This document shows positions 1 to 17,460 of a stretch of 31,118 nucleotides of DNA, one piece after another. The position numbers and the translations under genes are program-made. The notes under the pieces were generated by a model. It saw nothing but the letters and a program-made list of their open reading frames with translations, was not told the origin of the DNA and searched no databases. Every line of letters begins with the position of its first letter. Within the stretch, counting starts at the first letter, position 1. The DNA is taken from positions 1-31,118 of the IMG/VR virus record IMGVR_UViG_3300021425_000111, one strand, 5' to 3'. The stretch comes from a virus.

Positions 1-3000
1 GTTACATCATCGGTAGTTCCGACTGATTGACCAATCGCAACCGAACCATCGGTGATTGTGACACCAGTTCCACCAGAGAAATGCGCTCTTGTTTCAGATG
101 CACTTGGGCCAGTGTATGTGATTACACCCGTACTAGAATTATAAGATGCAGAACCATCTCCACCCGCATCGGTAACGGAGAACATTGCTCGTATCTCAGC
201 AGAAGTGTGTTGATCTGATTCTGTTAAAGAGAATTCTCCTGTACCACTATTATAGGACAGGTCTCCGCCAGCACTAAACATTGCTCTGATTTGTGCGGAA
301 GTGTGTTGTGCAGAATCAGTAAATGAGAATACACCCGTACTAGAATCGTAAGATAAGTCACCCGCAGCAGAGAGTTTACCTCTCACAGCTGAGTCTGTAA
401 CTCCCGCATCAGCAACATTAATACTGAAGACACCAGTCGCTGGATTGTAGTTTAGATCACCACCCGCACTAACAGCATTCTTCGCATCACTATCGGCACG
501 AGCAGTTGTATAGTAAAGGTTAACACCCTCACTCAGATAAGAAGTCGATCTACTTTCAAGACGAATATCAAAGTCAGAATCACTTCTTGCGGTAGTATAA
601 TAAAGATTATTCCCTTCTGAGATATTAGTGGTCGATTTGGTTGTCAGACGAATATCAAAGTCAGAATCACTTCTTGATGTTGTGTAATATAGGTTACTAC
701 CCTCACCAAGATCAGATGTTGTTTTGGTAGCAAGTCTAGTATCAAAATCTGTATTTGCTCTTGCAGTGGTATAATAAAGGTTTGACCCTTCATTAATATC
801 TGAAGTGGTATTCAGTAGTGTTGTAAATGACAGATTACCGATACTCGCACTATCAGATGCAATATTAGTAATTGTACCATTAGTAATTGTACCATTAGTA
901 ATTGTGCCATTGGTGGTGGTAAGTGTTGTAATACCCGCACTGTCAATTTGTGTTTGTAATCTAGTTGAGAAGTCACTGTCAAAGTTTGCTTGAGAGTATA
1001 TGTCCTCAACATCAACCGAAAACGCACCAGTAGTAGAGTTATAGGATAAGTCACCACCCGCAGAGAACATTGCTCTGATTTGTGCAGAAGTATGTTGTGC
1101 TGAGTCTGTGAAACTAAATTCACCTGTTCCCACATTATAACTCAAATCTCCGACAGCACTAAACAGACTTCTTATGGAAGCTGGGTCTCTATCAGAATCA
1201 CTATATGAGAATTCACCAGTAGATGCATTATAACTTAGGTTACCACCCGCAGAGAACATTGCTCGTATCTGGGCAGAAGTGTGTTGTGCTGAGTCTGTGA
1301 AACTAAATTCACCAGTACTTGAGTTGTAGGATAGGTCACCACCAACACTGAATAAACTTCTAATCGATGCGGGGTCTCTATCGGAATCAGTATACGAGAA
1401 TACACCAGTTGCAGCGTTATAGGATATATTACCTGAACCGCTAAACATTCCTTTGATATTTGAAGAATCAATATTGAATGTTCCGTCAGAATAAGATAGT
1501 CCTTTATTACCCGCAAACATTCCTTTGACATTTGCAGAGTCAACATCAAATACACCCGTAGATGAATTGTATACAAGACCCTTATCTCCAGAGACATATC
1601 CACGGATTGTTGATGTGGATGTTGTATCACCCAATGCAGAGTCAAATCTCGCACGAGTGTAATACAGGTTAGACCCTTCAGTCAAGTTAGTAGTTGTATA
1701 TGGGTCAAGTGTTGCGGTGGTAACAAATGATGCACCATCAGCAGTTCCGATAGTAAGATTGCCATTGGATGAGTCGAATGAGAATGAGGACACACCCGCA
1801 ACTGCGACTGAACCCGCACTATCAAGTTGACCTTGTGCATTTACCGTGAATACAGGAATCTGTGTTGCAGAACCATATGTTCCCGCAGTGACTCCAGTGT
1901 TCGTAATAGAAATTGTGTCTGTGGCAGAATCATAGGTAATACCTGTTCCACCATCAAGAGCTGCGCCCAAGTCAGAATCAAAGTTCGCCTTGGTGTAGAC
2001 TTGTTCTACATCAAACGAGAATGTACCTGTCGAACTGTTATATGACAGGTCACCAGATGCAGCAAAGTATCCACGAATAGCGGCAATAGATGTCGCATCA
2101 CCAATCGCAGAATCAAATCTCCCACGAGTATAATAGAGATTACCACCTTCATTGATATCACTTGTTGTGTTGGTAAGGTGGTTAAATGTTAGTGTCTGAA
2201 TAGCAGCACTATCGAATGTCGCATCTGTACCAATCGTAGTAGTTGGATTCAGATTATCAATGTTCGCAGTAGTAATACCCGCAGTAACAATAGATGCATT
2301 GTTAGATGTCAGATTGTAAACTTGTTGAAGTGTGGTAGTGTCCGAATCAAGAAGTCTGTGCCAGTCACCCGCATGAGCATAGTATCCACGACCAGTGTTG
2401 TGTACATGGGCATACATACCGTGATACTGAGATGCAGACGGAAGAGACGCTTCTGAATCATAAACATTACCATACAGAATCTTACCAGTGGTCTCAAGGT
2501 TTTTGTCATCCAATGTCCAGTGACCAGCGATTTCTGACCATAGGAAAGATACATTTGCAAGGTCACCACGTTCAATCTCAATACCAGCGTCTTGGTTTGG
2601 TGTTCCTGTTGCATTAGAGTTGAGGACAATAGTGTTGTCTGCAAGATTGATAGTTTCGGTATTGACAGTTGTCTGTGTTCCTGATACAGTAAGGTTACCG
2701 TCAAGAACAGTGTTACCCGTAACTCTCAGTTCACCAATATTCGCACTATCAACAGTCGCTTGGCTTCCCGTTAAAATTACATTAGCAAGGTTGGTGATAC
2801 TCGCACTGTCAAAACTCGCTTGATTTCCAATCAGTTGCGTGTTCGCAAGGTTTGTGATGGTTGCACTATCGACAGTCGCACCATTGACCACAGTCACACC
2901 TTGGTGGAAAGTCTCGGTGATGTCAGTTCGTGCGACATCTGAATCATTGAATATAAGTCCACCTTCTTCACTATCAAATGTCAAGATGTTGGGATTGTTA

Positions 3001-3446
3001 CCAACAAAATGAATCTCAAGTGAGGACTTAGTCGAGGCGCTATCGATAACAACAAACTTACCATCACTATCTTTTAATTGAAGACTTCCGAGGTTGATTG
3101 TTGAACCAGCGAGATGCAAGTCCTTCCATTTCTTTGTTGGACTACCGAGGTCATATGCTTCATTTGAGTCGGGAACGAGATTACCAGTAAACTGATCACC
3201 CGTGAAAGTAAAGGTAAAACTAGTTGTTGAACTATCATAAGCAACACCCAAATTACTAGAACCACTAAGTTTTGTCGGTTCGTAATTCCCACTAGATGTT
3301 CTATACGAAAGGATAGTACCATCAGATTCCGTACCAACTGAAGTATCTACGCCTCCTAGATTGTCGATGGAGAAAGCACCAGACGAGATTCTTTTTATTG
3401 GTGTCCCGACAATAATCTTTTTTAGGATGATTTTATCAACGGCCAT
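1..3446 (-). CDS. Giant repeat-rich tail fibre protein (C-terminus beyond window)
   Basis: An uninterrupted frame opens at an ATG and runs off the left edge, giving at least 1148 residues. The start is preceded by AAGGG eight bases upstream, overlapping the stop of the previous gene. The N-terminus reads [16 protein letters not shown]. Around residues 285-310 there is a segment ([17 protein letters not shown]) of a kind common in marine T4-like phage fibres. The rest is repetitive. About nine modules carry the pattern [20 protein letters not shown], several with [10 protein letters not shown]. At least six copies carry EGxNLYYTxAR, four of them evenly spaced near residues 880-980. Such modules are known from long phage fibres, so a trimeric host-recognition fibre is likely. 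The receptor-binding tip would lie in the missing C-terminal part. Fibre identity is fairly secure; which fibre it is cannot be told. Confidence 0.85.
480..800 (-). repeat. Four in-frame NLYYT fibre modules
   Basis: Four successive modules of about 84-90 bases each encode EGxNLYYTTxRxDSDFDxRL with small variations. Further single copies of NLYYT lie near bases 1655 and 2140. They are coding repeats of the giant fibre and probably form its shaft. Confidence 0.8.
864..908 (-). repeat. Three tandem 15-bp units encoding GTITN
   Basis: The 15-base unit attagtaattgtacc occurs three times in a row; the third copy has one change. It encodes three GTITN pentapeptides within the giant fibre, so gain or loss of a unit would keep the frame. 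Confidence 0.85.
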
Positions 3447-3456
3447 TATTGTTCCC

Positions 3457-3825
3457 TTATTTTGTCACTGAAGGTGAGACTTCAATTTGTCCTTCAAGGA
3501 CTCTTTGGATTATTGTGTTGGAATCACTATCCACATAGGATAGTTCGACATCGTAGACATAACGACCACGAGTCTTTAATGAATCGGTTTGGGTATTAGT
3601 TAAAGACAGACTAATTACTCCGTCTTCTGGAGGAGACATTACATTGGCACTGAAACTTAATGTATCGGGATCGCCCGCAGAATCAGTATAACTTCTTTTC
3701 ATTCTTGCGGCAATTTGTCTGCCAGTTAGATCGTATGCACTACCACTATCATGTGCAAGGTGGAGTTCGATTGCAACATCTGCCCCTTGGTTGATAATGA
3801 TATCTTCGTAATTTGGTGCTGCCAT
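3457..3825 (-). CDS. Small virion structural protein, probably fibre- or baseplate-associated
   Basis: A 122-residue acidic protein beginning [21 protein letters not shown] do not recognise a named family with certainty. The opening, an early ADVAIEL strand, a central [12 protein letters not shown] and a late GRYVYDVEL followed by [14 protein letters not shown] suggest a single beta-sandwich domain like those found in small phage baseplate or fibre adaptor proteins. It is the first gene after a late promoter and lies ten bases upstream of the giant fibre gene, so it may help attach or fold that fibre. The ribosome-binding signal is weak (GGGTAATTCTAA before ATG). No signal peptide or membrane segment is seen. 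Confidence 0.7.
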
Positions 3826-3889: not shown

Positions 3890-4558
3890 CTAGTAATCTG
3901 ACATTATTTCTTCGATGATTTCGTCTTGCAGACCCATAGACATATCAGTGCGGTCAAACATATATGAGACGGTGATTCTCCAACAGTCTGTTTCGGCTGC
4001 ATGATAGACACGATTATACCAAGGTTCACCATAAGCACCAAAGTATCCTGCCTTACATTGCCATCCTTGAACATCTTGCATAACAACTTCATTGCCAGTA
4101 TGACCATCAATGTACTTGAAACATCCATCACCTGTCTCTGACCAAGTGAAGATTAGATTGTATGCAGATGCGTTTGCATTATTATGCCATGAGATGAATC
4201 CATCGGGTGGATACATCTGTGTCAATGCATTGTTTCGTGTGCATAGAATTTGACAAAGTTGTGCATTATATTCAGCGTATCTTTCAATCAGGTTTGCCGC
4301 TTCTTGATTTTTTCCTGATCTGGGTTCTAATCGGTCTCCTTTCAATGAATAAGAACGAACATAATCTGGATACCCCTCATGGTCTAAATCCATTGCAACA
4401 ATTTCATCACGGTATAGATCACTCATCCATCTTTGTCTATCAGAAGTTTCACCGTTTAGTCGCAAAGTATTTGCGACAACATCCTTGTTATCATAATACC
4501 ACAAGAAATTGTTGAGTGCTTCTAATAATTCTTTATTGTTTATGGGAATGTTCTTCAT
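3890..4558 (-). CDS. 2OG-Fe(II) oxygenase-like protein with HxN motif
   Basis: A 222-residue protein whose C-terminal half reads as a double-stranded beta-helix oxygenase: FISWHNNAN at 121-129, then YNLIFTWSE, GCFKYIDG, and VYHAAETDCWRITVSYMF at 184-201. H125 and H186 fit the two iron-binding histidines, and R194 fits the 2-oxoglutarate-binding arginine. The usual acidic ligand of HxD is asparagine here (N127). Such oxygenases are frequent in marine T4-like phages and are thought to hydroxylate proteins or small molecules; the substrate here is unknown. The start overlaps the stop of the glycosyltransferase gene (ATGA), so the two are probably translated together. The family is fairly likely; activity is doubtful until the HxN change is understood. 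Confidence 0.7.
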   Translation of the reverse strand: MKNIPINNKELLEALNNFLWYYDNKDVVANTLRLNGETSDRQRWMSDLYRDEIVAMDLDHEGYPDYVRSYSLKGDRLEPRSGKNQEAANLIERYAEYNAQLCQILCTRNNALTQMYPPDGFISWHNNANASAYNLIFTWSETGDGCFKYIDGHTGNEVVMQDVQGWQCKAGYFGAYGEPWYNRVYHAAETDCWRITVSYMFDRTDMSMGLQDEIIEEIMSDY

Positions 4559-5313
4559 ACTATAAGTTTGTCTTTCGTCAAAGACCCAGAATAATGTCTA
4601 AGAATAGGTGGTTTACCTTCGATTGATTTCAAACATTCGTATTGATATTGTGTGAAATAGTTCCAACGAATATCGTCATGGAAGAAACCGATCTTCAAGT
4701 CTTTGTACTTATCCATCTTCTCTGTCATATACCACAGAGTTGTTTGGTCAAAGTGTTTTAGGTCTTTATCAAATTGTTCCTTTTCAAAACCAGTTGGTTG
4801 CCACATATTGTTATATTGTTTATTGAATAGTTCAAACCATTCTTCCATAAACTCACGAACCAATGGGTTGCCACTTCTATAGAGACAGACTCCACCACAT
4901 AAAGTAAACTGTTCTGTACGACCCTCGTATTTGAACTCACGAATCGCATAATACTTGGAGCGTTCTGGTGTCAGTTCATGAAACACCAAATCACGGTCAC
5001 CAAGTTCGTCCCAGACTTTCATGATGTCTTCGTGTTCACAATCCATATCAGCATCAACATACATGGTAACATCATAAGGAGATTGCGACATACCCCACAG
5101 TTTTGCACGATAGTGATTATCACAGAAAATAATCTGGTCAGCTTCGTCAGCACGATCATCAACGAATCGTTCTTCGGTTACCAAACAGATTTTTGCTTCT
5201 GGATAGAAGTCTTTGATTGACTCTATTAAGTTAACTGCATATGTATAGAAGTTTTGATTTCTTGATGCTACTATTACAAAACCTTTACTTGGTGTTGTCA
5301 TCTTCAAGGGCAT
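4555..5313 (-). CDS. GT-A type glycosyltransferase
   Basis: A 252-residue protein with a Rossmann-like opening (GFVIVASRNQNFYTYAVNLI, 11-30), a metal- and nucleotide-sugar-binding DAD motif in MYVDADMDC (D87, D89), a CGGVCLYR loop at 139-146 and a C-terminal LRHYSGSLTKDK. This order fits GT-A glycosyltransferases, which transfer sugars from nucleotide donors. It is co-expressed with the oxygenase-like gene downstream and overlaps the coiled-coil gene upstream. The first ATG overlaps that gene by 29 bases and has an AAGG almost touching it. An ATG four codons later (MTTPSKGFV, base 5301) has a better-placed AAGG about 12 bases upstream and may be the true start. The acceptor is unknown; virion fibre protein or cell-surface glycan are both possible. 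Confidence 0.8.
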   Translation of the reverse strand: MPLKMTTPSKGFVIVASRNQNFYTYAVNLIESIKDFYPEAKICLVTEERFVDDRADEADQIIFCDNHYRAKLWGMSQSPYDVTMYVDADMDCEHEDIMKVWDELGDRDLVFHELTPERSKYYAIREFKYEGRTEQFTLCGGVCLYRSGNPLVREFMEEWFELFNKQYNNMWQPTGFEKEQFDKDLKHFDQTTLWYMTEKMDKYKDLKIGFFHDDIRWNYFTQYQYECLKSIEGKPPILRHYSGSLTKDKLIV

Positions 5314-5734
5314 CCTTCACAATCATCATAGCATATAGATTCACTTCTGGAATCGACTTAGAGCGTCTCAGTTTAGATTTCAACAGACGGTTTTTAGATT
5401 CTTTGATTTCTGGAATCTCAAAAGTTTCGAGTTTGTACTCAAAGAGTTGTTCTAATTTCTTGGCACGTTCGTGTTCAAGTTTCTTTTGTTTCTCAAGTTC
5501 AGCCTCCGCCTGTTTCTTTTCCAGACGCTTCTTACTTGATGCATCAATCACATCTTCTCCAAGAAATGCAATCACTTCTTGGAACATTTCATTCTCTGAA
5601 CCATCTTCATTGAGTTTATTTAATTTATGAACTTGACGAATCTGACGATTTTCGATTTCTTCTTCACTAATGCAATTCAATAATTCTTTCTTGGGAGTTT
5701 CCCAGAACGCATTATCTAACCATTTTCTTGCCAT
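5285..5734 (-). CDS. Unrecognised coiled-coil protein
   Basis: A 149-residue, highly charged protein with no family I can name. It opens MARKWLDNAFWETPKKELLN. Residues about 80-120 form a dense Lys/Glu/Leu stretch (KKRLEKKQAEAELEKQKK) that should be a long helix or coiled coil. It ends LYAMMIVKDALEDDNTK. A strong ribosome-binding site (TAGGAG, seven bases from ATG) supports the start. It is the first of three overlapping genes with the glycosyltransferase and the oxygenase-like protein, which suggests a shared task, such as scaffolding the enzymes or serving as a fibre-assembly chaperone. This is inference from position only. Confidence 0.7.
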   Translation of the reverse strand: MARKWLDNAFWETPKKELLNCISEEEIENRQIRQVHKLNKLNEDGSENEMFQEVIAFLGEDVIDASSKKRLEKKQAEAELEKQKKLEHERAKKLEQLFEYKLETFEIPEIKESKNRLLKSKLRRSKSIPEVNLYAMMIVKDALEDDNTK

Positions 5735-5772: not shown

Positions 5773-8376
5773 TTATGCGGTTCTTTGATATAAAGTATAT
5801 GTTGTGATTATAGATGTTCCCGAATCAATTGTTGTACCTACATAGTTGCCCACATAGTTACCACCATAGTTACCCACATAGTTACCTACGAAGTTGCCGA
5901 TATAGTTACCTGTAAAGTCTCCAACAAAGTTACCTGTGAAGTTGCCCACATAGTTACCTGTAAAGTCTCCAACAAAGTTCCCACCGAAATCACCAGTAAA
6001 AGTTGTCGTTGAGGTTCTTGTTCTACTGTAGTTACTTGAACGAAATACTGTACTCGTTCTAGTAAATACCGCAAGAGAATTTCTGGTAGAGTCTCTTGTA
6101 AAGGTTTGGTTAAAATTACTGTCTCGTGTTCTCTGATAATTCGCACTGTATATTGATGTTCTTGTTCTAGAATAATCGGCTGAGTATGTTGAAACACGAG
6201 TCCGTGAATAATCGGCAGTGAAACTTCTGTTGTAGTTACCAAGATACTGACCAGAGAAGTCACCCGTATAGTTTACGACATTATTTCTGGTATAGTCTGC
6301 GCTGTAATTACGAGAATAGTTACCAACATAATTACCCACAAAGTCGCCTGCATAGGTAGTAGCACGATTGCGTGTATAGTCTGCGCTGTAATTACGAGAA
6401 TAGTTACCAGTGTAATCACCAAGAAAGTTACCAGTGTAATTAGTCGCTCTGGTTCTTTGGTAATTGGCGCTGTAATTACGACCATAGTTACCAGTGTAAT
6501 CACCAGTGAAGTTGCCAGTGTAATTACCCGCAAAGTCGCCAAGATAGTTACTACTGCGATATCTTATGTAATCACCTTGGAAGTTACCAGTGTAATTACC
6601 CGAAAAGTCGCCAAGATAGTTTACTAGACGATTTCTTATATATGCTCTTGCATAATTCCCTTGGTAATTCCCTGCACGATTTCGTGTAAAATCGAATTCT
6701 CCGTAAATATTGTTGTTAACATAGTTACCAACGAAAGTTACTCCACGATTACGAATAAACGCACGAGCATAGTTGCCCTGATAATAACGTCCATAGTTTG
6801 TGTTACGGTCTCTGGTATATGTAGTAGCACGAGTTCTACTATAATTACCAGTGAAAGACCGAGCGTAATTTGTATTTCTGTCTCTGTTATATGCGGTTGC
6901 TCTGGTTCTTTGGTAGTTGGCACTAAAGTTACGAGAATAGTTACCAGTGTAATCACCAAGAAAGTTACCAGTGTAATTAGTCGCTCTGGTTCTTTGGTAG
7001 TTGGCACTAAAGGCACGACCATAGTTGCCCACATAGTTACCAGTAAAATCACCAACAAAATTTGTTATACGAGTGCGTGTATAGTCTGCACTAAAGGCAC
7101 GACCATAGTTGCCCACATAATTGCCCGTGAAATCGCCTGCATATGTGGTTACCCTTGTTCTGGAATACTCAGCCGAATATGCACGAGCATAATTACCCGC
7201 ATAGTTACCTATGAAGTTTCTGGAATAGTTACCAGTATATTCGCCCGCAAAGTTTCTTGAGTAGTTACCAGTGTAATCACCAAGAAAACTTGCGACAAAA
7301 TCACCCACATAGTCGGCTATGTAATTACCAGCGAAGAACCTAGTATAATCACCAGTATAATTTTGAGCGAAGCTCCTTGAATAGTTACCAACATAATCGG
7401 TATTTCTTGAGAATGTGTTGGTACTGGTTCTGGTCGAATCTACTGTATTATTTCTTGTGAATGTATTAGTACTGTCTCTGGTAGAATCTGCTGTACTATT
7501 TCTTGTGTAATCTGTTGCTCTAGTTCTTGTATAATCTGTTACTCTAGTTCTTGTATAATCCGCAGAATAATCGGTGTTTGTTAGATCGTATCTGGTATCT
7601 GTTGCAATTCCTCTTGCAGTCCATGTCCCCGTATCTGTTGGAGCGCCTTGGACATTACTTCTTAATTGGTATGTTCCTATACCCGCAGAACCATTCATTG
7701 CACGAGACTGGACTCTTGAACCAAAGGTGGAACGTATCTCCGCATCGGTCATCTCTTGGAGACCTTGGAAAGAACCAGTCAATCCTGAAGACCGTTTGAT
7801 TGCAACAGGTCTTACTGCTGTTGGTGAAGTCATGGAAGACTTGACATAAAGATTGTATGCCGTTCCAGCAGTATTTGTTCGAAGTCTATCTTCAAACACA
7901 TTCGATTTATATGTTGAGTATGTTCCGTCTGGTGCAGACGAACCCAATTTAAACACGCCTGGATATTCTGATACTGCAATACGAGATAGGAGCCTATCTG
8001 AAAGAGTGTCTACCTCTCCCGAATCAAGTTCATGAATTTCTGCTGTTCCGCCATTGTCGGTGAATTCAATAGGATATCTAAAAGTAGATGCAATAGGAGC
8101 GACACCCTCTTTTTGATACAAAGAGGTTGTTGTTTGTGTAACAGGAACATTACCATTAGAGAACCCGTGAGTGCCGGGCCCATCACCAAAGTTAGTATCT
8201 GTGTATGTACCAATTGAAGTACTACCAGAACTTGAGGCAGTAAGGGCATACACATCACTAGAATCCAACCCAGCAAGATGCAACCCTGCCTGATATGCAA
8301 GATAGTTCTCTTCTGTGGTTGTTATCTCTTTAAGGTCACCATTAGTGCCTTCGAGTTTTAGTGCAGTAGTTCCCAT
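5773..8376 (-). CDS. Tetrapeptide-repeat virion/fibre protein, paralogue A (867 aa)
   Basis: The N-terminal 265 residues are non-repetitive and include TEENYLAYQAGLHLA (22-36), ISRIA-to-EYPGVFKL and SFQGLQEMTDAEIRS segments. From about 270 to 847 the chain is made of four-residue units of the form (N/D/T)-(Y/F)-x-(G/R/A), for example NYTG, DYSR and NFVG, with some RTRx units; that is about 145 units. The last 20 residues (TTIDSGTSIITTYTLYQRTA) are non-repetitive. The N-domain and C-terminal tail match those of the neighbouring 717-residue protein. I infer a long, thin fibre or sheath-like appendage, with the N-domain as attachment site and the tail as cap or trimerisation element. No enzyme motif or membrane segment is seen. 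It starts with GAGG four bases before ATG. Confidence 0.85.
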   Translation of the reverse strand: MGTTALKLEGTNGDLKEITTTEENYLAYQAGLHLAGLDSSDVYALTASSSGSTSIGTYTDTNFGDGPGTHGFSNGNVPVTQTTTSLYQKEGVAPIASTFRYPIEFTDNGGTAEIHELDSGEVDTLSDRLLSRIAVSEYPGVFKLGSSAPDGTYSTYKSNVFEDRLRTNTAGTAYNLYVKSSMTSPTAVRPVAIKRSSGLTGSFQGLQEMTDAEIRSTFGSRVQSRAMNGSAGIGTYQLRSNVQGAPTDTGTWTARGIATDTRYDLTNTDYSADYTRTRVTDYTRTRATDYTRNSTADSTRDSTNTFTRNNTVDSTRTSTNTFSRNTDYVGNYSRSFAQNYTGDYTRFFAGNYIADYVGDFVASFLGDYTGNYSRNFAGEYTGNYSRNFIGNYAGNYARAYSAEYSRTRVTTYAGDFTGNYVGNYGRAFSADYTRTRITNFVGDFTGNYVGNYGRAFSANYQRTRATNYTGNFLGDYTGNYSRNFSANYQRTRATAYNRDRNTNYARSFTGNYSRTRATTYTRDRNTNYGRYYQGNYARAFIRNRGVTFVGNYVNNNIYGEFDFTRNRAGNYQGNYARAYIRNRLVNYLGDFSGNYTGNFQGDYIRYRSSNYLGDFAGNYTGNFTGDYTGNYGRNYSANYQRTRATNYTGNFLGDYTGNYSRNYSADYTRNRATTYAGDFVGNYVGNYSRNYSADYTRNNVVNYTGDFSGQYLGNYNRSFTADYSRTRVSTYSADYSRTRTSIYSANYQRTRDSNFNQTFTRDSTRNSLAVFTRTSTVFRSSNYSRTRTSTTTFTGDFGGNFVGDFTGNYVGNFTGNFVGDFTGNYIGNFVGNYVGNYGGNYVGNYVGTTIDSGTSIITTYTLYQRTA
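5836..7569 (-). repeat. Coding region of period-12 tetrapeptide repeats (paralogue A)
   Basis: A 12-base coding periodicity gives aromatic-x-Gly/Arg-Asn/Asp units. Larger units are also duplicated, including a perfect 71-base direct repeat (6392-6462 and 6929-6999). Breaks in phase occur, for example around NNNIYGEFDF. Confidence 0.9.
6392..6462 (-). repeat. 71-bp direct repeat, copy 1 (copy 2 at 6929-6999)
   Basis: Both copies read ttacgagaatagttaccagt at the left and end with gctctggttctttggta, and I find no mismatch over 71 bases. The offset is 537 bases (179 codons), so the reading frame is kept, but it is not a multiple of 12. Confidence 0.85.
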
Positions 8377-8384
8377 AACACCTC

Positions 8385-8392
8385 TATTTATG
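8385..8392 (-). promoter_or_regulatory. Late-promoter-like box (CATAAATA)
   Basis: Seven of eight bases match TATAAATA on the minus strand, overlapping the stop codon of the 717-residue gene. Only eight bases separate it from the ATG of the 867-residue gene, so a transcript from it would have almost no leader. It may be a chance match. Confidence 0.3.
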
Positions 8393-10541
8393 CAGTTCTA
8401 ACATAGAGAGTATAAGTCTCAATATTTGTATTTCCAGACCCTATTGTTTCGCCTGCGTAGTCTCCAGAGAAGTTTCTTGAGTAGTTACCAGTAAAGTGTC
8501 GTGCATAATCACCTGTAAAGTTACCCACAAAGTTTCGAGAGTAATCACCTACAAAAGTGTTTGTGAAGTTGCGAGCATAGTTACCAATAAACTCGCCAGC
8601 AAAATCCCTTGAGAAGGCATCTTCACCAAGATAGTTGGAACTACGAGTGGACACGAAATTTCTAGAATAATCACCGATGAACTGTCTTGTATAGTTACCA
8701 GTGTAATCACCTAAGAAGTTACCCAAGAAGTCGCCAGTGTAATTACCTAAGAAGTTACCCAAGAAGTTACCTAAGAAGTCACCAGTATAATTTGATTGAC
8801 GAGTTGGTTGTCTGGTTCTAAAAAAATCACGAGAATAATTGGTGGTTCTAGTGACTCGAGCGAAATTCTTTTCTACATCACCCGTATAGTCTCCAATAAA
8901 TTCAAAGGCACCATATAAAGCATCTTCGAAAGGCCTTGTTCTAAGGTAATCTCTGGAATAAGTACCAGTATAATTACGACTAAAGTTACCAAGATAATTT
9001 CTAGCATAATTACCTAGATAATCTCCAAGAAATCCACGACTATAGTTTGTCTCTCTGTTTGCTTCACGAATATAAATATTGTCATCTACAGTATATGCAA
9101 TACGAGTAGCTGTTCTATCCGTAATACGATCCCTTAAATACTCACGAGAATAGTTACCCAGATAATTTCTGGAATAATCACCAGTATAATCCCTTGCGTA
9201 ATTCACACCATCACTAGCGGCTGTCAAACGGTCACGTATGAAATTGCCAAGATAGTTTCCTTGGTAGTTACCCGTGTAAATATCAGTGCGAGAATAGTTA
9301 CCAGTGAAACTCTCAGAAACATTTCTACTAAACTCATGTACATTAGTACTTGATCTGGAATAATCACCTACGAAGTTACCACCCCTGAGTCCCGCAGAGT
9401 TTCTTGTATATGTACCAAGATACTCATGAGCTCTTGAGTAACCTTGTACGGTGTAAACTATTGTGTTTCGAGTATACGAATCAACATTAACATCACCTCT
9501 CGTGAAGTCATCGATACGAGTATTGGTATAGTTACCTACGAAGTTACCAACAAAACCAGTCACAGTATACAAACTCGTTCTGGTTTTACTATATGTTGCA
9601 GTGTAATCTCTTGAGAAATTTGTAAGAGATGTCCTTGCGTAAATACTACTTCTTGTTCTAGCATATTCGCCAGCATAGGTAGATGTTCTCAACCTAGTGT
9701 ATGTCGATGCTCTACTTCTGGTATAGTTTGCATCAACGATTGCTTGACGGGTATCAGTTACAGTTCCTTTCGAAGTCCATGTGCCAGATAAACCATTGTT
9801 AGTTGGTGTGCCTGCGGCAGAACTGTATATTCTATAGTTACCAATGTCTGTGGTATCAGACGATATCTTGTTTTGTAAACGAGTACCAATAGAATACTTT
9901 ACTTGGTCATCGGTCATCAACTGAAGACCTTGATATGTACCCGTATCACCACCAGAGCGTTTGATTGAGAATGGCAACACCTTGGTCGGTGCAGTCATAG
10001 ATGTTCTTCTGTACAGGTTATACGATATATTTGTGCCGTCTGTACGAGTATCAGTTGTCAAAGTCTTGACAGAAGTATAACCACCAGCGGGAGTTGATGT
10101 TGCAAGTTTGTATGAGCCTGGATAGTCAGATGTGAAGATACGAGAACCGACTCTAGTAAGTAATGAGTCCATATCAGAGTCATTCATCTCACGAATAACT
10201 CTTTGACCGTCACTGTCTCTCTGCATTACAGGAAGACGATTGTTCGCCCCAGATGGAGTAATCGTTCCTCGTGTTTGTCTGAGTGGAGTTGTTACAGTGG
10301 TAAAGGTAAGAGTTGCTTGGTCACCACCTGTTCCTATTGCGGAATCGTATGAGGTATCAACAACAAGACCAACAAGGTTCTCAGTTCCATGAGTGCTTAA
10401 CGCAAGAGAACCCACATCCGAACTGTCTTGGGATGCGAGGTGTAATCCTGCCTGATATGCAAGATAGTTCTCTTCCGTAGAGGAGAAGACTTGCAATTCA
10501 GTTGGTGCAGCACTGTCTTTTAACTTCAATGGAACAGTCAT
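8388..10541 (-). CDS. Tetrapeptide-repeat virion/fibre protein, paralogue B (717 aa)
   Basis: This has the same architecture as its neighbour. The N-domain of about 270 residues contains STEENYLAYQAGLHLA (21-36), SDYPGSYKLATSTPAGGY (138-155) and TGTYQGLQLMTDDQVKYSIG (200-219). Four-residue aromatic repeats run from about 272 to 695 (for example GDYT, GNFL, RNYT), and the C-terminal tail is GSGNTNIETYTLYVRTA. The repeats are less regular than in paralogue A, with more interruptions such as TVDDNIYIREANRE and ALYGAFEFIGDY. The pair looks like a tandem duplication that diverged; the ends are conserved and the repeat length is free to change. GGAG lies 11 bases before ATG. A structural fibre-like role is inferred; I cannot name a characterised homologue. 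Confidence 0.85.
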   Translation of the reverse strand: MTVPLKLKDSAAPTELQVFSSTEENYLAYQAGLHLASQDSSDVGSLALSTHGTENLVGLVVDTSYDSAIGTGGDQATLTFTTVTTPLRQTRGTITPSGANNRLPVMQRDSDGQRVIREMNDSDMDSLLTRVGSRIFTSDYPGSYKLATSTPAGGYTSVKTLTTDTRTDGTNISYNLYRRTSMTAPTKVLPFSIKRSGGDTGTYQGLQLMTDDQVKYSIGTRLQNKISSDTTDIGNYRIYSSAAGTPTNNGLSGTWTSKGTVTDTRQAIVDANYTRSRASTYTRLRTSTYAGEYARTRSSIYARTSLTNFSRDYTATYSKTRTSLYTVTGFVGNFVGNYTNTRIDDFTRGDVNVDSYTRNTIVYTVQGYSRAHEYLGTYTRNSAGLRGGNFVGDYSRSSTNVHEFSRNVSESFTGNYSRTDIYTGNYQGNYLGNFIRDRLTAASDGVNYARDYTGDYSRNYLGNYSREYLRDRITDRTATRIAYTVDDNIYIREANRETNYSRGFLGDYLGNYARNYLGNFSRNYTGTYSRDYLRTRPFEDALYGAFEFIGDYTGDVEKNFARVTRTTNYSRDFFRTRQPTRQSNYTGDFLGNFLGNFLGNYTGDFLGNFLGDYTGNYTRQFIGDYSRNFVSTRSSNYLGEDAFSRDFAGEFIGNYARNFTNTFVGDYSRNFVGNFTGDYARHFTGNYSRNFSGDYAGETIGSGNTNIETYTLYVRTA
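8457..9728 (-). repeat. Coding region of period-12 tetrapeptide repeats (paralogue B)
   Basis: About 105 four-residue units with aromatic at position 2 and Gly/Arg at position 4. The most regular stretch is near 8690-8790, where GNFLGNFLGNYTGDFLGNFL is encoded by near-identical 12-base units. Confidence 0.85.
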
Positions 10542-10559: not shown

Positions 10560-12044
10560 TTAATTTAGTTGTGTTCCATTCTCATCGTATATAAGTGGAA
10601 TGTCTGCCCTCAATGCATTAAGTGCTGCAACGAAATTATCTCTTTCTGCACCCACAAACCCATCAGAGTCAAGTAAATTCAAACTTCCCAATCTACTATT
10701 TACAGTAGTCTGGTCTGCATCAAGCAATGCAATATCATCGGCAAGTGAATTCGCTACTCTTACAAGATTGAGTCGGTTACCAATTGTTCCGTCATCATTT
10801 AAATCATCAAGGTCACCAATTGCACTGTCTAATCTATATAGACCAAGACCAATGTTGTTATTCGCAAGGTTACCATTGAGACCATCAGAGTCGATATCCT
10901 TACCGATAGTGGTGTGTACTTCATTGATTGCACCACGCAATGTCGTGGCAGATGTATTCAGAGCGGCAGCGCCAATCTCTGTATCGTGTTCGTTAATTGC
11001 GCCCGCAAGTGTTGTTGCAGTAGTAGTAAGTGTTTCACTACCAATCTCTGCATCCAACTCATTGATAGCGTCCATCGCTGAGTTTGCAGTTGTTGTTAAT
11101 GCTTGGTCTGGTTCAACCTTTGAGTTGAGGAAATCAATCTCTTGTTCTAATTCAAAGATTGCACCTGATACAGTTGATGCGGTAGTACCCATTGCACCCG
11201 CAGTAATTGTACCCAACTCTGCATCAAGTTCGTTAATCGAAGAAACAACTGTTGAAGCCGATGTTGTTAATACAGAAGCAGAATCCCCAATCATCTCATT
11301 GATGGCATTGATGTGTCCAGTGACAGTCGATGCTCCACTGACCTCACTCCCCATTGCAGAGTCACCAAGTTCCGCATCAAGTTCATTCACTGCATCTGAT
11401 AATGTAGTTGCAGTAGTAGTTAATGCTTGGGCAGGTTCGACCTTTGTATTAAGTGTGTCAATCTCGACTTCAAGTTCAGAAATGGCAGCACCAACTGTTG
11501 ATGCAGTTGTACCCATTGCATTTGAAGTGATTGTTCCGAGTTCTGCATCCAGTTCGTTAATTGCAGCGACAAGATTCTTTGCAACGGTTGTTAGATTGGT
11601 ATGAGGTCTCGCACCTACATCACTATCAAGTTCGTTGATTGCAGCAGTAAGATTCTTTGCAATGGTTGTCAGAGTAGTGTGTGGACGAGCACCAATGTCA
11701 CTATCAAGTTCATTGATACCAGATATAACATCATTTGCGATAGTTGTCAAGTCTGTGGAAGCAGCACCCCCACCAGCACCGTGTAAGTCTACATCAAGTT
11801 CTACTAATGCAGATACGATGTTGTTTGCGGTAATACCCGCTTGTGATAAATCAGTTGCAACTAGGTCATTAGAAGTACCACGAATGGCAAGTTCCAGTTC
11901 GTTAATCGCTGCAACGGCACTAGAATCTTCGTTTGTATTTAATCGACCAGTTGCACCCAAGTCTAAAGACACTGTATTGGTATTGGTTACCAATGTAGTG
12001 AAAGTATCATTGATAGTTGTAATTGTCGGTTTGCTTGTTGCCAT
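10560..12044 (-). CDS. Repeat fibre protein with AINELDxxIG modules
   Basis: A 494-residue protein of about fifteen modules of 18-30 residues, each of the type LTTTATTLSDAVNELDAELG. This pattern (T-T-A-x-x-L-x-x-A-I-N-E-L-x-x-x-I-G) is widespread in phage fibre and baseplate stalk proteins, where short helices are expected to form trimeric coiled coils. Two modules of 65 residues, at 163-227 and 271-335, are close duplicates, both containing AMGTTASTV and KVEPxQALTTTA. The protein is very poor in Cys and aromatics. It ends with LIYDENGTQLN. The start codon overlaps the stop of the 68-residue gene (TAATG). A tail-fibre or whisker-like role is likely; attachment partner and receptor are unknown. 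Confidence 0.8.
   Translation of the reverse strand: MATSKPTITTINDTFTTLVTNTNTVSLDLGATGRLNTNEDSSAVAAINELELAIRGTSNDLVATDLSQAGITANNIVSALVELDVDLHGAGGGAASTDLTTIANDVISGINELDSDIGARPHTTLTTIAKNLTAAINELDSDVGARPHTNLTTVAKNLVAAINELDAELGTITSNAMGTTASTVGAAISELEVEIDTLNTKVEPAQALTTTATTLSDAVNELDAELGDSAMGSEVSGASTVTGHINAINEMIGDSASVLTTSASTVVSSINELDAELGTITAGAMGTTASTVSGAIFELEQEIDFLNSKVEPDQALTTTANSAMDAINELDAEIGSETLTTTATTLAGAINEHDTEIGAAALNTSATTLRGAINEVHTTIGKDIDSDGLNGNLANNNIGLGLYRLDSAIGDLDDLNDDGTIGNRLNLVRVANSLADDIALLDADQTTVNSRLGSLNLLDSDGFVGAERDNFVAALNALRADIPLIYDENGTQLN
10890..11762 (-). repeat. Coding repeats of the AINELD fibre
   Basis: Successive units encode (T)TTAxTLxxAINELDxEIG. The region also holds a larger duplicated block (11364-11558 and 11040-11234, offset 324 bases or 108 codons). 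Confidence 0.8.
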
Positions 12045-12250
12045 TACAGTTTCTCTACTAGTTTATTGAGGAGTTCTTTTAATTCACTGACTTCATGTTT
12101 TAGTTCTTCAAACTCTCTGTCCTTGTTCTTTCTTTGACTCTTTGCCAATCGTGCTTTCTTAATCTCATCTTTATTTATATTAATTATCGCACCCGAATTT
12201 GGGTCTCTTGCGAGACCCGAATTACCGTCAACTGCAATATACTGTTTCAT
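12044..12250 (-). CDS. Small coiled-coil virion-cluster protein (68 aa)
   Basis: A 68-residue protein starting MKQYIAVDGNSGLARDPNSG. Its C-terminal half (REFEELKHEVSELKELLNKL) has leucine or valine at heptad spacing and should form a coiled coil. It overlaps both neighbours by one base (TAATG on each side), which argues that it is a real gene translated with the 1736-residue protein and the AINELD fibre. No named function is recognised. A small adaptor or chaperone for the adjacent fibre is plausible. Confidence 0.75.
   Translation of the reverse strand: MKQYIAVDGNSGLARDPNSGAIININKDEIKKARLAKSQRKNKDREFEELKHEVSELKELLNKLVEKL
12172..12179 (-). promoter_or_regulatory. Internal late-promoter box (TATAAATA)
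   Basis: An exact TATAAATA on the minus strand lies inside the 68-residue gene, 127 bases upstream of the ATG of the AINELD fibre. It could give extra transcription of the fibre block, but it also simply encodes Ile-Asn-Lys, so a chance match is possible. Confidence 0.35.
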
Positions 12251-15200
12251 TATACTGCCAATGCGATTGCCCTAAAGTCCTTGAATACAGGGACTCTAGC
12301 GGAGTTATTGGAACGCATTACAATCTTAAATTGGTATTGAGTGAATGGGTCAACATCACCACCGTCACCACCAATTAAGAATCGATAGTCACGGAAGTTG
12401 TTTACATCTGGTGCAATAGTCTGTTCTGCTGATTGTAGTGTCCAGTCCACATCAAAGATGTTCACACCATCGTTTGCGGTTCTGAAGTACAAGTCGAATT
12501 CTGTACCAGAAGGTCTTAGTGCAGATAGGATTACTTTTAGACCCACAGCATCTTCTTCCAAGTTTGCAACACTTGTAATATGTTTCGCAAGAGAAGAACC
12601 ACCAAACGCAAGTGTTTCTGCGGCATATGATAATGGTACATTAAATCCAGATGCCGCACCAGCAGCCTGATTATCAATCAAGTTAGTTGATGTCGATACA
12701 GAGACTCTCTGCGTATCAATCAATGGGGAAACATCTCCACGAATTGTACTCATGTCAACTTTGTATGATAATGATTTAACTCCAGAACCCAGTTCCGCAG
12801 TTTCGTTTGCAGTCTTGGCAATGAGTCTTGGAGCATTAAAGTAGTTCTCATCATTCACCACAACTTCAGAAGACCAACTTGCATCTTTCTGATATCTGAC
12901 CTGTTGACCAGTAACAGCAGCAAGTGATTTACCCGTAGTCAGTTTGGTCTGGAATGTGAGTGATGTGTCATCTGGTTGTAATGTGGTAAAGTTTGGTGTG
13001 ATAGTATCAAACTGAACTTGTCTATCCGCAACAACATCATCACCACCGAATCTACCAGACGATGTCGCAGCAGCGGCCGCCTCAAATGTTAGACCGAATC
13101 CATCGACTGCGGTAACAGTTCTTGTACCATTAATCTGACTTCCCAGAACACCATTGTAGGATGTACCATCAACCAGACCAGAGATTTCGATTGTGTCACT
13201 CACATCATAACCATGATTCGGGAACAACATGGTAACTGTTGCATCACCACTAGTCATGAAGAATGGGTTTCCATCAACAGCATCCTCTTCAACAGGAGCA
13301 TTCTCAAATATCGCATAACCACCCGCAGTACTAAACTCTGCTTGGAAGATTTTGAATGCGAGGTCTTTTGTTTGGTCTGGCTCCCAAGTCTTACCATTCT
13401 GAGACTTAAAGAGTGAACCCATAGACGGTTGACGAGCGATTCTTTTCTCGGTTGAACCAAGTTCGAATGCATATGTCTCTGCGACATACGCTTCGTAGTC
13501 AACAGATTCCGCAAGAAGTACAATACAGTAATCTGTATCGGGATTCAAGAAGATTGGTTCATCGAACTCAAAGGTTGTTGGTGTCGCAATAACAGATGCC
13601 TGAGTCTGTGAGGACGGAAGGTTTACCGAACTTGGACTCAAGAACTTACTTGCGTTACCGATAATCTCAGTTGCAGACGGAATACCATTAACCATAGGAC
13701 GAATCTGTAGTTCAACAGGAACAGTAGAATCCTTGGTTTTAAAGTAAGTCTGAACCTTAGTTACAAACATACCTGAAGGTTTATTCACAGTAAATGATTG
13801 TGCAAGTGGATCACGGTTTCGTACTCTTGTAGTCTCTGTCCATCTACGAGTTCTGGTTTGAGTGATACGAGTAGATGTAATAGTCTTCTGTCTAGTATCC
13901 AAAGTACCCTGTGCAGTATAGTTCAATGATGTACGAGACAATGCAGCCGCATCGTCATTCACACTAATATCAAGTAGTTTGAATTCACGAGTACCCGCAC
14001 GGAAACGATTGGTCGGACTAGATGGAATGAAGAATGAACCCTCAATCTCACCATGAGTATTAGATATCAACTCACTTGAACCCTGTGGGTGTGCAGTTGA
14101 CAATCTGTATCGGTTACCATAATAGTTCGATGAACCACGAGTAACAGAGTGTCTTTGGAATGTTTCTTCTCTACAGAAATCACTTACTGACTTACCATCA
14201 AAGAATGGGAAGTACTTGGTGTTGGGTTTCAGACCTTCTGCTTTAAAGAATACTTTTCGTGAACGAATGAATGGTAGGAATGTTAAGGATACCGTTCTGT
14301 CACCAACTTGTTTACGAACAGTCCTAGAACCAACAACAACTGTCTGGTTAAAGGAACGAGTCGTTACACGGAAGTTACCTTCTTGTCTACCTGTAACATT
14401 GGTCTGGTTAATACCATTAGAACTTCTTTGAGTATTGATACCATTCCAGTTCCATTGTCCAGCTCCTCTCCATCCACCAAAGAGATTAAAACCACCAAAG
14501 ATACCAAAACCAAAGATTGGAATGAATGGTGAAGCTGCTTGCCATGTCCAACGATTTCTTAGACCCGAAAATCCTCTTGCGGTTGCAGTACCAGCAGCAA
14601 GAGCACCTTCGTTAAGGTCTGGAAGTTGTTCCTTCGCAGTCTTGTTGATTACATTTGCGGGTTTGTATTTTGTCTGTTGCCATTCGTCAGATGCGGGTGA
14701 TAGAGTAAGAGTACCCTCACCAGTGATAACTGCGAATGGATTTACATTCTCTGTACCAGAAACTAGGGGTTGACTAATTGCAACTTTATCTGTATAATTA
14801 AGGTATACAGTATCACCCTTCAGAATAGTGTTGGATGATTTTGCACTGTCATATACAAGAGCAACATTATCTTCAAATGTTGCGGGTGCAAGAATATTCT
14901 TTGATGGATCAATAGCTGCACGATATTCGGGATTCTCTGCATCCGTGAAACTTCTGTCTGCAAAGTTATCTACAAAGAAACCAGACTTGGTTCTAGAGTT
15001 ACCCGCAGAGTCAAGTACTAGAAGTGAAGATGTATCGACTTCAAGAAGACTTAAAGAAGTGACTTCTTCTAATTTATCGATTCTAGTCTCCAGTTCGGAG
15101 ATGTCTTTCATTGTGAATCCCTTCGCCTTGATGGGAGTTACAACGACATCTGAATCATTTAGACCATATGCATTATGTTCTAATTCAAAGAGTGCTAGTG

Positions 15201-17460
15201 TATTTGATGGTGTAGCGGGAATCTGTGAAGAGAATCCTGCCTCACCTTGAATTGTTTTAATCTCACCCTGTGTACTTACAACAATCTTATCTGCACGAGG
15301 AACATAGTATTCTACATCACCTTGGAAGATATCACCATTAGTAGGTATTTCGTTGATTGCACCACCAGTACCAGTAAACAATCCATTACTACCAACCGAT
15401 GAACGGAAGTCAATAACATCACGCAAGTTTACTGAACTACGAGGCCCAGCTTGATATGAATGAATGTCTTCATATTCTACCTGACCAGTATATGAGTTTA
15501 CAGAGAAGTAATCACCCGTACCGTGAGTAAAGTGTTGGAATTTACAGTAGACATTACCGCCTGGGGCCGATGCACCACCCTCAAGAACTAGGCGACCATT
15601 GTCATAGAAACCTGCTCGTTGACCATTGTCAACAGTAAAGAGGTGAGAAATATCTGCACCACTAGAGTTTGTTTCTTTTATCTCAGAGACACTATAGATG
15701 TCTGATTTTCCGAGGTCAATATATTGTTGACCAGTGATTGAGTCTGTTGAAATCGTAGTGGTTTGAGTAGTTTCGACCAATGTCTTCTGTCTAACAGAAG
15801 GTTGTGCCTTATTGACCTTTGCATATATGGTAACTGCTTGACCACTAGGAAGACTACTGATAGTCACCGACTGTGTGCCAGCACCACTAGTACCAAAACC
15901 TGTTACAACCGCACCAGTGTCATCTCGTGTGATAATCCACTGTGAAGTGTTTACCAATGTCTCACCAGTTGCGGTAACAGTGATTGTTAAGTTAGTACCA
16001 GTAGCTGTTCCTGTGAATATTCTTTGAACTTCAAAGTCAACATCACTGACCGTTCTTGGTCTTGGATTAGGGAGAGGATATACCAAGTTAACCTTGGTCG
16101 ATTCTTTGATAACTGCTTTGCTACTTTCAAGAACTGGGTTGGCATACTTAGTTGAACTTGTTCCCAAAGATTTAACATTACGCAGTGATTGTCCACTGTT
16201 CATCTTGATATCAAACAAATAGACACGATGGTTTGCACCATCTTCTTCTACATAACGAACTCTTGCAGTACCGATAGTTGAACCACCATAGTCTACCGCA
16301 CTACGCAAATTGAGTGTTTCGAATTCGGATACATTTAGGTTACCCTCTAAAGTACCACAAACAAAGTATTGACCATAGGTAACACCTACAACTTCATTGG
16401 CTGTAGTTGATGTAGTTCTTGGTTTTGGAATAGTAAGAGGTGTCGCTTTTTCTGTTGCACCACGATAACCGTTGATGTATGCAACACCGTCTGATACAGA
16501 TGCAATCAGATTTGTTCCTGAGTCACTGAAGTCTACAGTAAAGTCTTTTGCAATATAGTCACCAGATTCTTCACTCGTTCTTTGTGCAAGAAGTGTATTG
16601 GGGGCGTTATATGCATCCGCACCTGTTACTTGGTCAACGATATTACCGTCTACAACATCACAGTAGTAAACAAAGTTTTCGTCCGAATCAATTAAGTCTG
16701 CGGTTGTTAGGGTTAAGGTGATACGATATCTGTCAGCTCCAGGCGAGGACAGGTTTGGAGTCGCACCTTGGTTATCATACAACTCTTGTGTATCTGCAAC
16801 AGTAACAATATCTTCTGTTGATTTAAAACCAATAGTTGCAGTCGGGAATCTTGTGTACTTAGATAGAATGAGTGACTGAGGTGCAACGAATACAAAGTGA
16901 CCACGAGTAAAGAAGTCACCAGCACCATTCGCAATTTTACAACCTTGACCAACAGCAGGATTTGCGACTGTGTTGACTGATTGTACAGTAAGTGTATCAC
17001 TTCCGTTTGAGATATCTTCGCCCGAACTCATACGGATTGGATTCTCACCAGAAACACCACCAGATGTATTGGTGTACTGGACATAAAGTGTTGCGGGATC
17101 AGAACCTTCTGCCTCAACAACCTCAAGTACTCTTGCCTTTACACCAGATGTCTGTCCAGTAAATTCTGTTCCAACCAATGTGGATGTGTCAGAAGGTAGT
17201 ACATTGGTTGTCGTGTTTAATTTAATAAACTCGTAATCACTAGTGATTGTTGGGCCGCCTGGATTTACAGATGCACCTTCAAGGAAGATGTTTCGACCAA
17301 ACCGAGCAATCTCTTCTTGGATAATGGTCTGCATCTGAGTAAGTTCACGAGCCTGCAATGCACGACCACTGTTAAACAGAATGCGGTGATAATTATCACT
17401 ATCCTTGAAATCATCCTTGTAGGAAGAAGAGAATACGTTAGATGTAAATGTCTTTGGCAT
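12250..17460 (-). CDS. Large virion structural protein, DUF4815-like (1736 aa)
   Basis: The N-terminus (MPKTFTSNVF, then LFNSGRALQARELTQMQTII at 28-47 and RFGRNIFLEGASV) matches the opening typical of large DUF4815-type structural proteins of marine T4-like phages. A small beta module (VGTEFTGQTSGVKARVLEV) lies around 95-165. A Gly/Phe/Trp-rich hydrophobic stretch lies around 969-1007 (IPIFGFGIFGGFNLFGGW). The following part is Arg- and Thr-rich (RITQTRTRRWTETTRVRNRD) and leads to DPLAQSFTV. The C-terminal part has several beta-rich segments and ends RVPVFKDFRAIALAV. It sits after gp8 and before fibre genes, so it probably connects fibres to the baseplate rim. AAGG lies upstream of the ATG, over the stop of the gp8 gene. 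Its structural role is strong; its exact place is inferred. Confidence 0.8.
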   Translation of the reverse strand: MPKTFTSNVFSSSYKDDFKDSDNYHRILFNSGRALQARELTQMQTIIQEEIARFGRNIFLEGASVNPGGPTITSDYEFIKLNTTTNVLPSDTSTLVGTEFTGQTSGVKARVLEVVEAEGSDPATLYVQYTNTSGGVSGENPIRMSSGEDISNGSDTLTVQSVNTVANPAVGQGCKIANGAGDFFTRGHFVFVAPQSLILSKYTRFPTATIGFKSTEDIVTVADTQELYDNQGATPNLSSPGADRYRITLTLTTADLIDSDENFVYYCDVVDGNIVDQVTGADAYNAPNTLLAQRTSEESGDYIAKDFTVDFSDSGTNLIASVSDGVAYINGYRGATEKATPLTIPKPRTTSTTANEVVGVTYGQYFVCGTLEGNLNVSEFETLNLRSAVDYGGSTIGTARVRYVEEDGANHRVYLFDIKMNSGQSLRNVKSLGTSSTKYANPVLESSKAVIKESTKVNLVYPLPNPRPRTVSDVDFEVQRIFTGTATGTNLTITVTATGETLVNTSQWIITRDDTGAVVTGFGTSGAGTQSVTISSLPSGQAVTIYAKVNKAQPSVRQKTLVETTQTTTISTDSITGQQYIDLGKSDIYSVSEIKETNSSGADISHLFTVDNGQRAGFYDNGRLVLEGGASAPGGNVYCKFQHFTHGTGDYFSVNSYTGQVEYEDIHSYQAGPRSSVNLRDVIDFRSSVGSNGLFTGTGGAINEIPTNGDIFQGDVEYYVPRADKIVVSTQGEIKTIQGEAGFSSQIPATPSNTLALFELEHNAYGLNDSDVVVTPIKAKGFTMKDISELETRIDKLEEVTSLSLLEVDTSSLLVLDSAGNSRTKSGFFVDNFADRSFTDAENPEYRAAIDPSKNILAPATFEDNVALVYDSAKSSNTILKGDTVYLNYTDKVAISQPLVSGTENVNPFAVITGEGTLTLSPASDEWQQTKYKPANVINKTAKEQLPDLNEGALAAGTATARGFSGLRNRWTWQAASPFIPIFGFGIFGGFNLFGGWRGAGQWNWNGINTQRSSNGINQTNVTGRQEGNFRVTTRSFNQTVVVGSRTVRKQVGDRTVSLTFLPFIRSRKVFFKAEGLKPNTKYFPFFDGKSVSDFCREETFQRHSVTRGSSNYYGNRYRLSTAHPQGSSELISNTHGEIEGSFFIPSSPTNRFRAGTREFKLLDISVNDDAAALSRTSLNYTAQGTLDTRQKTITSTRITQTRTRRWTETTRVRNRDPLAQSFTVNKPSGMFVTKVQTYFKTKDSTVPVELQIRPMVNGIPSATEIIGNASKFLSPSSVNLPSSQTQASVIATPTTFEFDEPIFLNPDTDYCIVLLAESVDYEAYVAETYAFELGSTEKRIARQPSMGSLFKSQNGKTWEPDQTKDLAFKIFQAEFSTAGGYAIFENAPVEEDAVDGNPFFMTSGDATVTMLFPNHGYDVSDTIEISGLVDGTSYNGVLGSQINGTRTVTAVDGFGLTFEAAAAATSSGRFGGDDVVADRQVQFDTITPNFTTLQPDDTSLTFQTKLTTGKSLAAVTGQQVRYQKDASWSSEVVVNDENYFNAPRLIAKTANETAELGSGVKSLSYKVDMSTIRGDVSPLIDTQRVSVSTSTNLIDNQAAGAASGFNVPLSYAAETLAFGGSSLAKHITSVANLEEDAVGLKVILSALRPSGTEFDLYFRTANDGVNIFDVDWTLQSAEQTIAPDVNNFRDYRFLIGGDGGDVDPFTQYQFKIVMRSNNSARVPVFKDFRAIALAV

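Follow-up and report, generated by a model that had tools for sequence, protein, structure and literature searches.

Paralogous aromatic tetrad-repeat proteins next to a predicted oxygenase and a probable glycosyltransferase: candidate modified host-contact arms of a T4-like marine myovirus

The uncultured marine bacteriophage IMGVR_UViG_3300021425_000111 carries two adjacent genes for proteins, here termed A and B, in which a tyrosine or phenylalanine recurs every four residues over most of the chain. The window, i.e. the whole stretch of DNA that was analysed, comprises 31,118 bases. A and B are paralogues: both contain TEENYLAYQAGLHLA near the N-terminus and they end in TYTLYQRTA and TYTLYVRTA, respectively, which bears out the initial annotation, where twin neighbouring genes with a common N-domain and C-tail (YTLYxRTA) had been noted.

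The window represents the tail region of a T4-like myovirus. When named phages were ranked by means of the baseplate wedge protein, C48C1 (Kyanoviridae) came first, followed by pelagibacter, methylophilales and cyanobacterial phages. On the minus strand, the baseplate genes are followed by the genes for a VrlC-type protein, a small virion protein, a tail fibre protein, B and A, and then by CH, GT, OX, a fibre-assembly protein and a large fibre-like protein (Table 1). The host recognition cluster, as PMC7029224 names the genomic place that corresponds to the A/B locus, is bounded on one side by the VrlC-type gene, and the order matches that of VrlC in HTVC008M and Mosig. With the VrlC-type and tail fibre genes on one side and the genes for the fibre-assembly protein and the large fibre on the other, A and B belong to a tail-fibre cluster. 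The gene encoding the large fibre-like protein contains tandem repeats of 87 and 189 bases at the DNA level.

Table 1. Genes and protein segments of the A/B locus, in the order of the minus strand
Feature	Position	Strand	Basis
VrlC-type structural protein	12250..17460	(-)	phrog_358, 1248 bits; named from size and gene order
Small virion protein	12044-12250	(-)	
Tail fibre protein, directly upstream of B	10560..12044	(-)	phrog_25848 tail fiber, E 4.5e-17
Gene B, 717 aa	8388-10541	(-)	
B head, residues 1-272, three homologous modules	9726..10541	(-)	41% identity to A head
B tetrad array, ~residues 273-697, less regular, without globular island	8451..9725	(-)	Aromatic spacing
B C-tail, predicted closing strand of module 3, with stop	8388..8450	(-)	Shared C-tail; homology to A
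Gene A, 867 aa	5773-8376	(-)	
A head, residues 1-268, three homologous modules	7573..8376	(-)	AlphaFold pLDDT ~90; hhalign
A tetrad array, residues 269-846	5839..7572	(-)	Aromatic spacing; pLDDT ~28
A longest perfect run, 20 tetrads, residues 328-404	7165-7395	(-)	
A C-tail, residues 847-867, predicted closing strand of module 3, with stop	5773..5838	(-)	AlphaFold; hhalign
CH, 149 aa, charged, probably helical, directly downstream of A	5285..5734	(-)	
GT, 252 aa, probable GT-A type glycosyltransferase	4555..5313	(-)	DxD; weak Pfam matches
OX, 222 aa, predicted 2OG-Fe(II) oxygenase fold	3890..4558	(-)	AlphaFold; Foldseek
Fibre-assembly protein	3457-3825	(-)	
Large fibre-like protein, long repeats, open at window edge	3-3446	(-)	

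The periodicity of the arrays is pronounced. Past residue 260, A contains 85 pairs of Y/F at a spacing of four, as compared to a mean of 24 and a maximum of 39 in 2000 shuffles, and the corresponding values for B are 50 pairs versus a mean of 14 and a maximum of 27. In both proteins similar peaks are present at spacings of 8, 12 and 16, and other spacings are rare. The claim that an aromatic residue recurs every four residues is thus firmly upheld. The repeat numbers given together with it, about 145 and 105, agree with the array lengths divided by four, from which they derive; the aromatics number 121 in A and 82 in B, over about 145 and 106 tetrads, and the arrays contain gaps and register slips. 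Uninterrupted runs of at least four tetrads hold 87 aromatics in A and 45 in B, the longest in B comprising 14 tetrads, and the register in A slips repeatedly (Y/F positions modulo 4, 50/46/15/9). The consensus derived from 5578 tetrads of 111 family proteins reads N/D - Y/F - T/A/S/V - G/R, with mostly Arg or Ser filling the skipped aromatic positions. Moreover, the tetrad NYSR is spelled by six DNA variants in its eight copies in A and by five in its five copies in B, the copies differing at synonymous sites, which indicates that the repeat is kept at the protein level and does not stem from fresh DNA slippage.

The initial annotation knew of no characterised fold with this unit, and our searches concur: employing A, B and the head, neither Pfam, PHROGs, PDB sequences and BFVD nor Foldseek yielded anything usable for the array or the head, the Foldseek query being the model of A including the low-confidence array rather than the head alone. 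Likewise, no Pfam or PHROG family names or covers the tetrad repeat proteins, and literature searches for the tetrad repeat, with many subscription papers outside their scope, found nothing. A reading of the head as a MABP beta-prism was dropped (Foldseek rank 26, E 5.3, TM 0.27).

To place the array within the protein, A was modelled by AlphaFold as a monomer together with 31 other family sequences. Such a monomer model had been proposed as a check beforehand; it returned a confident head (residues 1-268, pLDDT ~90) and a confident C-tail strand (residues 847-865), but left the array at a pLDDT of ~28. The head reads as three modules, each of which consists of strands around one helix. Using hhalign, module 1 aligned with module 2 (E 1.9e-6), and module 2 aligned with module 3 over 66 columns (E 2.3e-10) without the C-tail and over 80 columns (E 1.1e-11) when it was included. 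As the tail extends the match between the modules, the C-tail appears to be the closing strand of module 3, and on the basis of alignment and model the array is best described as a loop insertion in the module 3 hairpin, with both ends anchored together. The hairpins of modules 1 and 2 that match the array site are short, and a natural relative of 63 amino acids (L068:11973-12164) consists of one module plus the closing strand with no array between. With the C-tail completing module 3, the array would not be a shaft between two end domains. The fibre shaft of the initial annotation, taken as a plain rod that has the N-domain at one end and a C-domain at the other, is thus not supported in this form by the alignments and the model.

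The monomer model leaves room for a trimer in which each C-tail would complete the head of an adjacent chain. In a homotrimeric shaft of this kind, the tetrads of three chains would be wound, like the T4 gp5 needle, as a triple beta-helix or beta-solenoid that turns its aromatics and glycines inwards, with modification being incidental or absent. In a strand, the even period brings the aromatics to the same face as G/R, and a coil of 12 residues might underlie the additional, weaker periodicity at three and six tetrads (position 4, z 8.3 and 9.0), yet tandem duplication explains part of this super-period. In addition, a tail-fibre-like protein of S-RIM2 with N-V/L-T-G tetrads (L002:12376-12798) weakly matches T4 gp5 needle constructs (E 0.002-0.013); however, the best match in this comparison is a low-complexity protein, and such matches mean little. 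Moreover, Arg, which occupies 28% of position 4 and many skipped sites of position 2, would be hard to bury, the register slips, and the array tips have no convincing match to solved structures in the PDB sequence comparison. We regard a trimeric shaft as unlikely.

Conversely, the array might be a disordered sticky polymer, with Y/F and R as stickers and G, N, S and T as spacers, serving as a flexible adhesive or a condensate-forming brush. The composition of the array, dominated by Y, F, R, G, N, S and T and in A comprising 65 Arg and zero Lys, Pro, Cys or Trp, would suit such a polymer, as would its low pLDDT and the wide range of protein lengths among the sampled relatives. Nevertheless, composition alone would not call for so strict a period of four, in which each position has its own set of letters, and AlphaFold handles repeats poorly when their alignment is gappy, so that the low pLDDT proves neither disorder nor the absence of structure. 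We consider the polymer quite improbable. The array may nonetheless present a sticky aromatic surface, which the presence of Arg without Lys in A would fit.

Relatives of A are encoded at 109 places in viral contigs. The sampled family proteins range from 403 to 3347 amino acids, some being cut at contig ends. Tandem copies are common, as a full-length copy directly upstream is found within the fetched sequence for 25 of the 83 distinct A-position proteins. In a distant branch (L069-L079), Y/F every four residues is kept, with T/S at 67% of position 3 and G at 68% of position 4, whereas N/D occupies position 1 in 19% of the tetrads as compared to 74% in the main group. C48C1 is the only one of 50,697 phage records in which relatives of B, CH, GT and OX were found, yet marine virus contigs often contain the cassette. 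A also matches S-RIM2-type records via unrelated N-V-T-G tetrads; these matches were rejected as homologues, since the alignment sits in the N-V-T-G stretch of a different fibre. Bacterial genomes, searched with one pattern, yielded no relative.

Several variants deserve mention in their own right. Small separate tetrad ORFs without a head (156-283 aa) are located upstream of a giant tetrad protein at L041:7186-8573, L047:7186-8573 and L067:7265-8520. The tetrad protein at L068:9986-12164, which adjoins the array-less copy of 63 amino acids, has an array rich in Pro, Cys and Thr units (DPTSF, DPCFF, APTTY). Upstream of CH-GT-OX, L236:6213-7760 encodes a tyrosine-rich protein with longer repeats (SYTGDGGTSYLATYSSVFDDPTPASE) that ends in WTLYVRIA.

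In many relatives the array is interrupted. At least 100 residues of non-tetrad, globular-looking sequence were found inside the array in 20 of 29 B-type and in 20 of 83 A-position proteins. Two pairs of B proteins were sufficiently close for a comparison of these islands. In the pair L018 and L022, B is near-identical except for a clean island of 117 amino acids in L018. In the pair L003 and L004, B is ~97% identical, whereas the islands share 57% identity overall and 33-53% in the core. In these relatives the islands thus vary as expected of a swappable receptor-specificity domain, judging from sequence comparison. Compared to Pfam, they returned nothing, and with PHROG they gave weak matches to a tail fibre (0.005) and a host-range protein (0.002). 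The position of the islands bears on the topology as well: as a loop that leaves and re-enters at one point has its middle at the far tip, islands in mid-array would be expected. In modest agreement with this expectation, the island centres lie at a median of 0.58 of the array and are more central than expected for randomly placed islands (p 0.03), although the sequences are related to one another and some islands are off centre. A and B of the window contain no island; the longest non-tetrad stretch of B, 83 amino acids, is tetrad-like.

The genes downstream of A provide a further clue. CH is possibly an assembly chaperone. GT is probably a GT-A glycosyltransferase, although its family assignment is weak: D87 and D89 (DxD) are invariant, Glycos_transf_2 is matched by 10 of 33 members, at best with E 0.0019 and thus below curated strength, and Nucleotid_trans by one. 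GT and OX share 4 bases, at the end of the former and the start of the latter. OX has no match in Pfam and no PDB sequence match, and hhalign against two 2OG families aligned the WHxD motif alone (E 0.004-0.08); therefore, the fold was assigned by structure. AlphaFold predicts a double-stranded beta-helix fold (pLDDT 94.2), and Foldseek places hardly anything but 2OG oxygenases among its top PDB matches (prob 0.9-1.0); a bacterial prolyl hydroxylase (7e-6), PHD2 and AspH head the ranking, at modest TM-scores (0.3-0.4). H125, H186 and R194 are invariant in the family, and N127 stands where the HxD/E metal triad has Asp/Glu. The structure model thus predicts, with high confidence, that OX is a 2OG-Fe(II) oxygenase resembling protein hydroxylases.

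A second OX relative lies away from the tetrad cassette, beside the genes for the tail tube and the major head protein, at L080:18267-18920 (C48C1, 40% identity to OX of the window), L224:4583-5215 and L228:2427-3059, and it may modify another virion protein. Separately, the genome of cyanophage S-RIM2 R21_2007 (L002) contains eight stretches that match 2OG-FeII_Oxy_3, four of them above the curated cut-off.

The linkage of these genes to the tetrad proteins is strict. CH, GT and OX are present together in 51 of 51 testable loci, i.e. those whose downstream sequence continues for 2.6 kb or more beyond the last tetrad protein, representing 38 distinct heads. Reciprocally, loci fetched with GT contain CH before and OX after it in 80 of 80 cases (51 distinct GT sequences), and all 77 with room for it have a tetrad or head protein upstream; this set comprises the best 80 of more than 550 GT matches, and the test hence leans toward near relatives. 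Marine virus contigs contain at least 559 relatives of GT and at least 594 of OX. It might be argued that OX and GT act elsewhere, on another fibre or on a surface polysaccharide of the host, and are mere neighbours of the tetrad proteins within the cluster. Glycosyltransferases of the host recognition cluster have indeed been read as modifying the host O-chain (PMC7029224), and in three loci fetched with OX (L213, L215, L238), where the tetrad protein is present, one or two other fibre-like genes are found between it and the enzymes. However, the linkage in the testable loci holds without exception down to an enzyme identity of ~30%, and the predicted structure of OX resembles protein hydroxylases. 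We therefore consider a target elsewhere doubtful.

Taken together, the position in the tail-fibre cluster, the loop arrays on a head, the variable inner domain and the constant company of OX and GT suggest that A and B are probably modified, host-touching arms. The reading we favour, to which we assign an even chance, is that both proteins are host-contact arms of a T4-like marine myovirus, modified by its own OX and GT and equipped with a swappable tip. The sequences and models show the repeat, the topology of the insertion, the linkage of the cassette, the predicted oxygenase fold and the variation of the islands, whereas the location in the virion, the modification and its target residue, receptor binding and the conformation of the arm are what we infer here. 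The head of three modules would anchor the arm in the virion, and the giant tetrad loop would project from the module 3 hairpin and return to the same point. The globular island, when present, would sit at the tip and touch the receptor, B of the window being a version without island. CH may help assembly, and the adjacent OX and GT would modify the array surface after translation, following the logic of collagen hydroxylation and glycosylation. Modification might fall on Thr/Ser (position 3), Tyr (position 2) or Asn/Asp (position 1); the distant branch, where N/D is scarce at the first position, speaks against Asn/Asp as the only target and weakens it as a universal one. The more specific proposal that a widespread group of marine phages has tyrosine/arginine tetrad arms, hydroxylated and glycosylated by two dedicated enzymes as a phage counterpart of collagen modification on a repeat unrelated to collagen, is put forward tentatively.

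The enzyme cassette and the swappable island, which go beyond the view of the initial annotation, say most about function. The tetrad cassette makes hydroxylation and glycosylation of phage adhesins testable, since its repeat is simple, its length varies naturally, its inner domain can be swapped, and it probably brings its own modifying enzymes. Furthermore, it provides a possible protein substrate for glycosyltransferases and oxygenases found in the host recognition clusters of marine phages.

The genomic place and the likely role of A and B are of a known kind, that of phage tail fibres. The libraries searched do not contain, and the papers searched do not describe, the repeat, its head, the way in which the array is inserted, or the strict association with an oxygenase and a glycosyltransferase. 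Like the fibres of the pelagimyophage and cyanomyophage host recognition cluster (PMC7029224), A and B are located behind VrlC, adjoin glycosyltransferases and vary from phage to phage. Unlike these, they belong to no Pfam or PHROG family, carry the array inside a head module, and are strictly linked to an oxygenase in addition to a glycosyltransferase. CDS0201 of C48C1 (3347 aa, OQ984149), annotated as hypothetical protein, has a homologous head and tetrads and is followed by relatives of CH, GT and OX, but is a single giant protein with several embedded islands. The N-V-T-G tetrads of the S-RIM2 (L002) fibre share the period and the polarity of N/D, hydrophobic residue, T and G; however, they are aliphatic instead of aromatic and occur in a different protein without homology to the head. 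With the C-terminal triple beta-helix of T4 gp5 (VxGxxxxx octads), the array has in common the hydrophobic-x-Gly spacing, the short repeat and the occurrence in a phage tail, whereas its period is four, it contains aromatics and Arg, and A lacks a significant PDB sequence match. OX resembles P4H, PHD2 and AspH in the predicted fold and in the two invariant His and the Arg, but differs from them in the lack of a Pfam match and in the Asn that replaces the metal-binding Asp. Finally, mimivirus possesses a collagen repeat protein together with a virus-encoded 2OG hydroxylase and glycosyltransferase (PMC9546862). Although the tetrad array differs from collagen in its period of four, the absence of G-X-Y and, in A, the absence of proline, mimivirus collagen would be the nearest working analogy, though not a relative, for the tetrad cassette.
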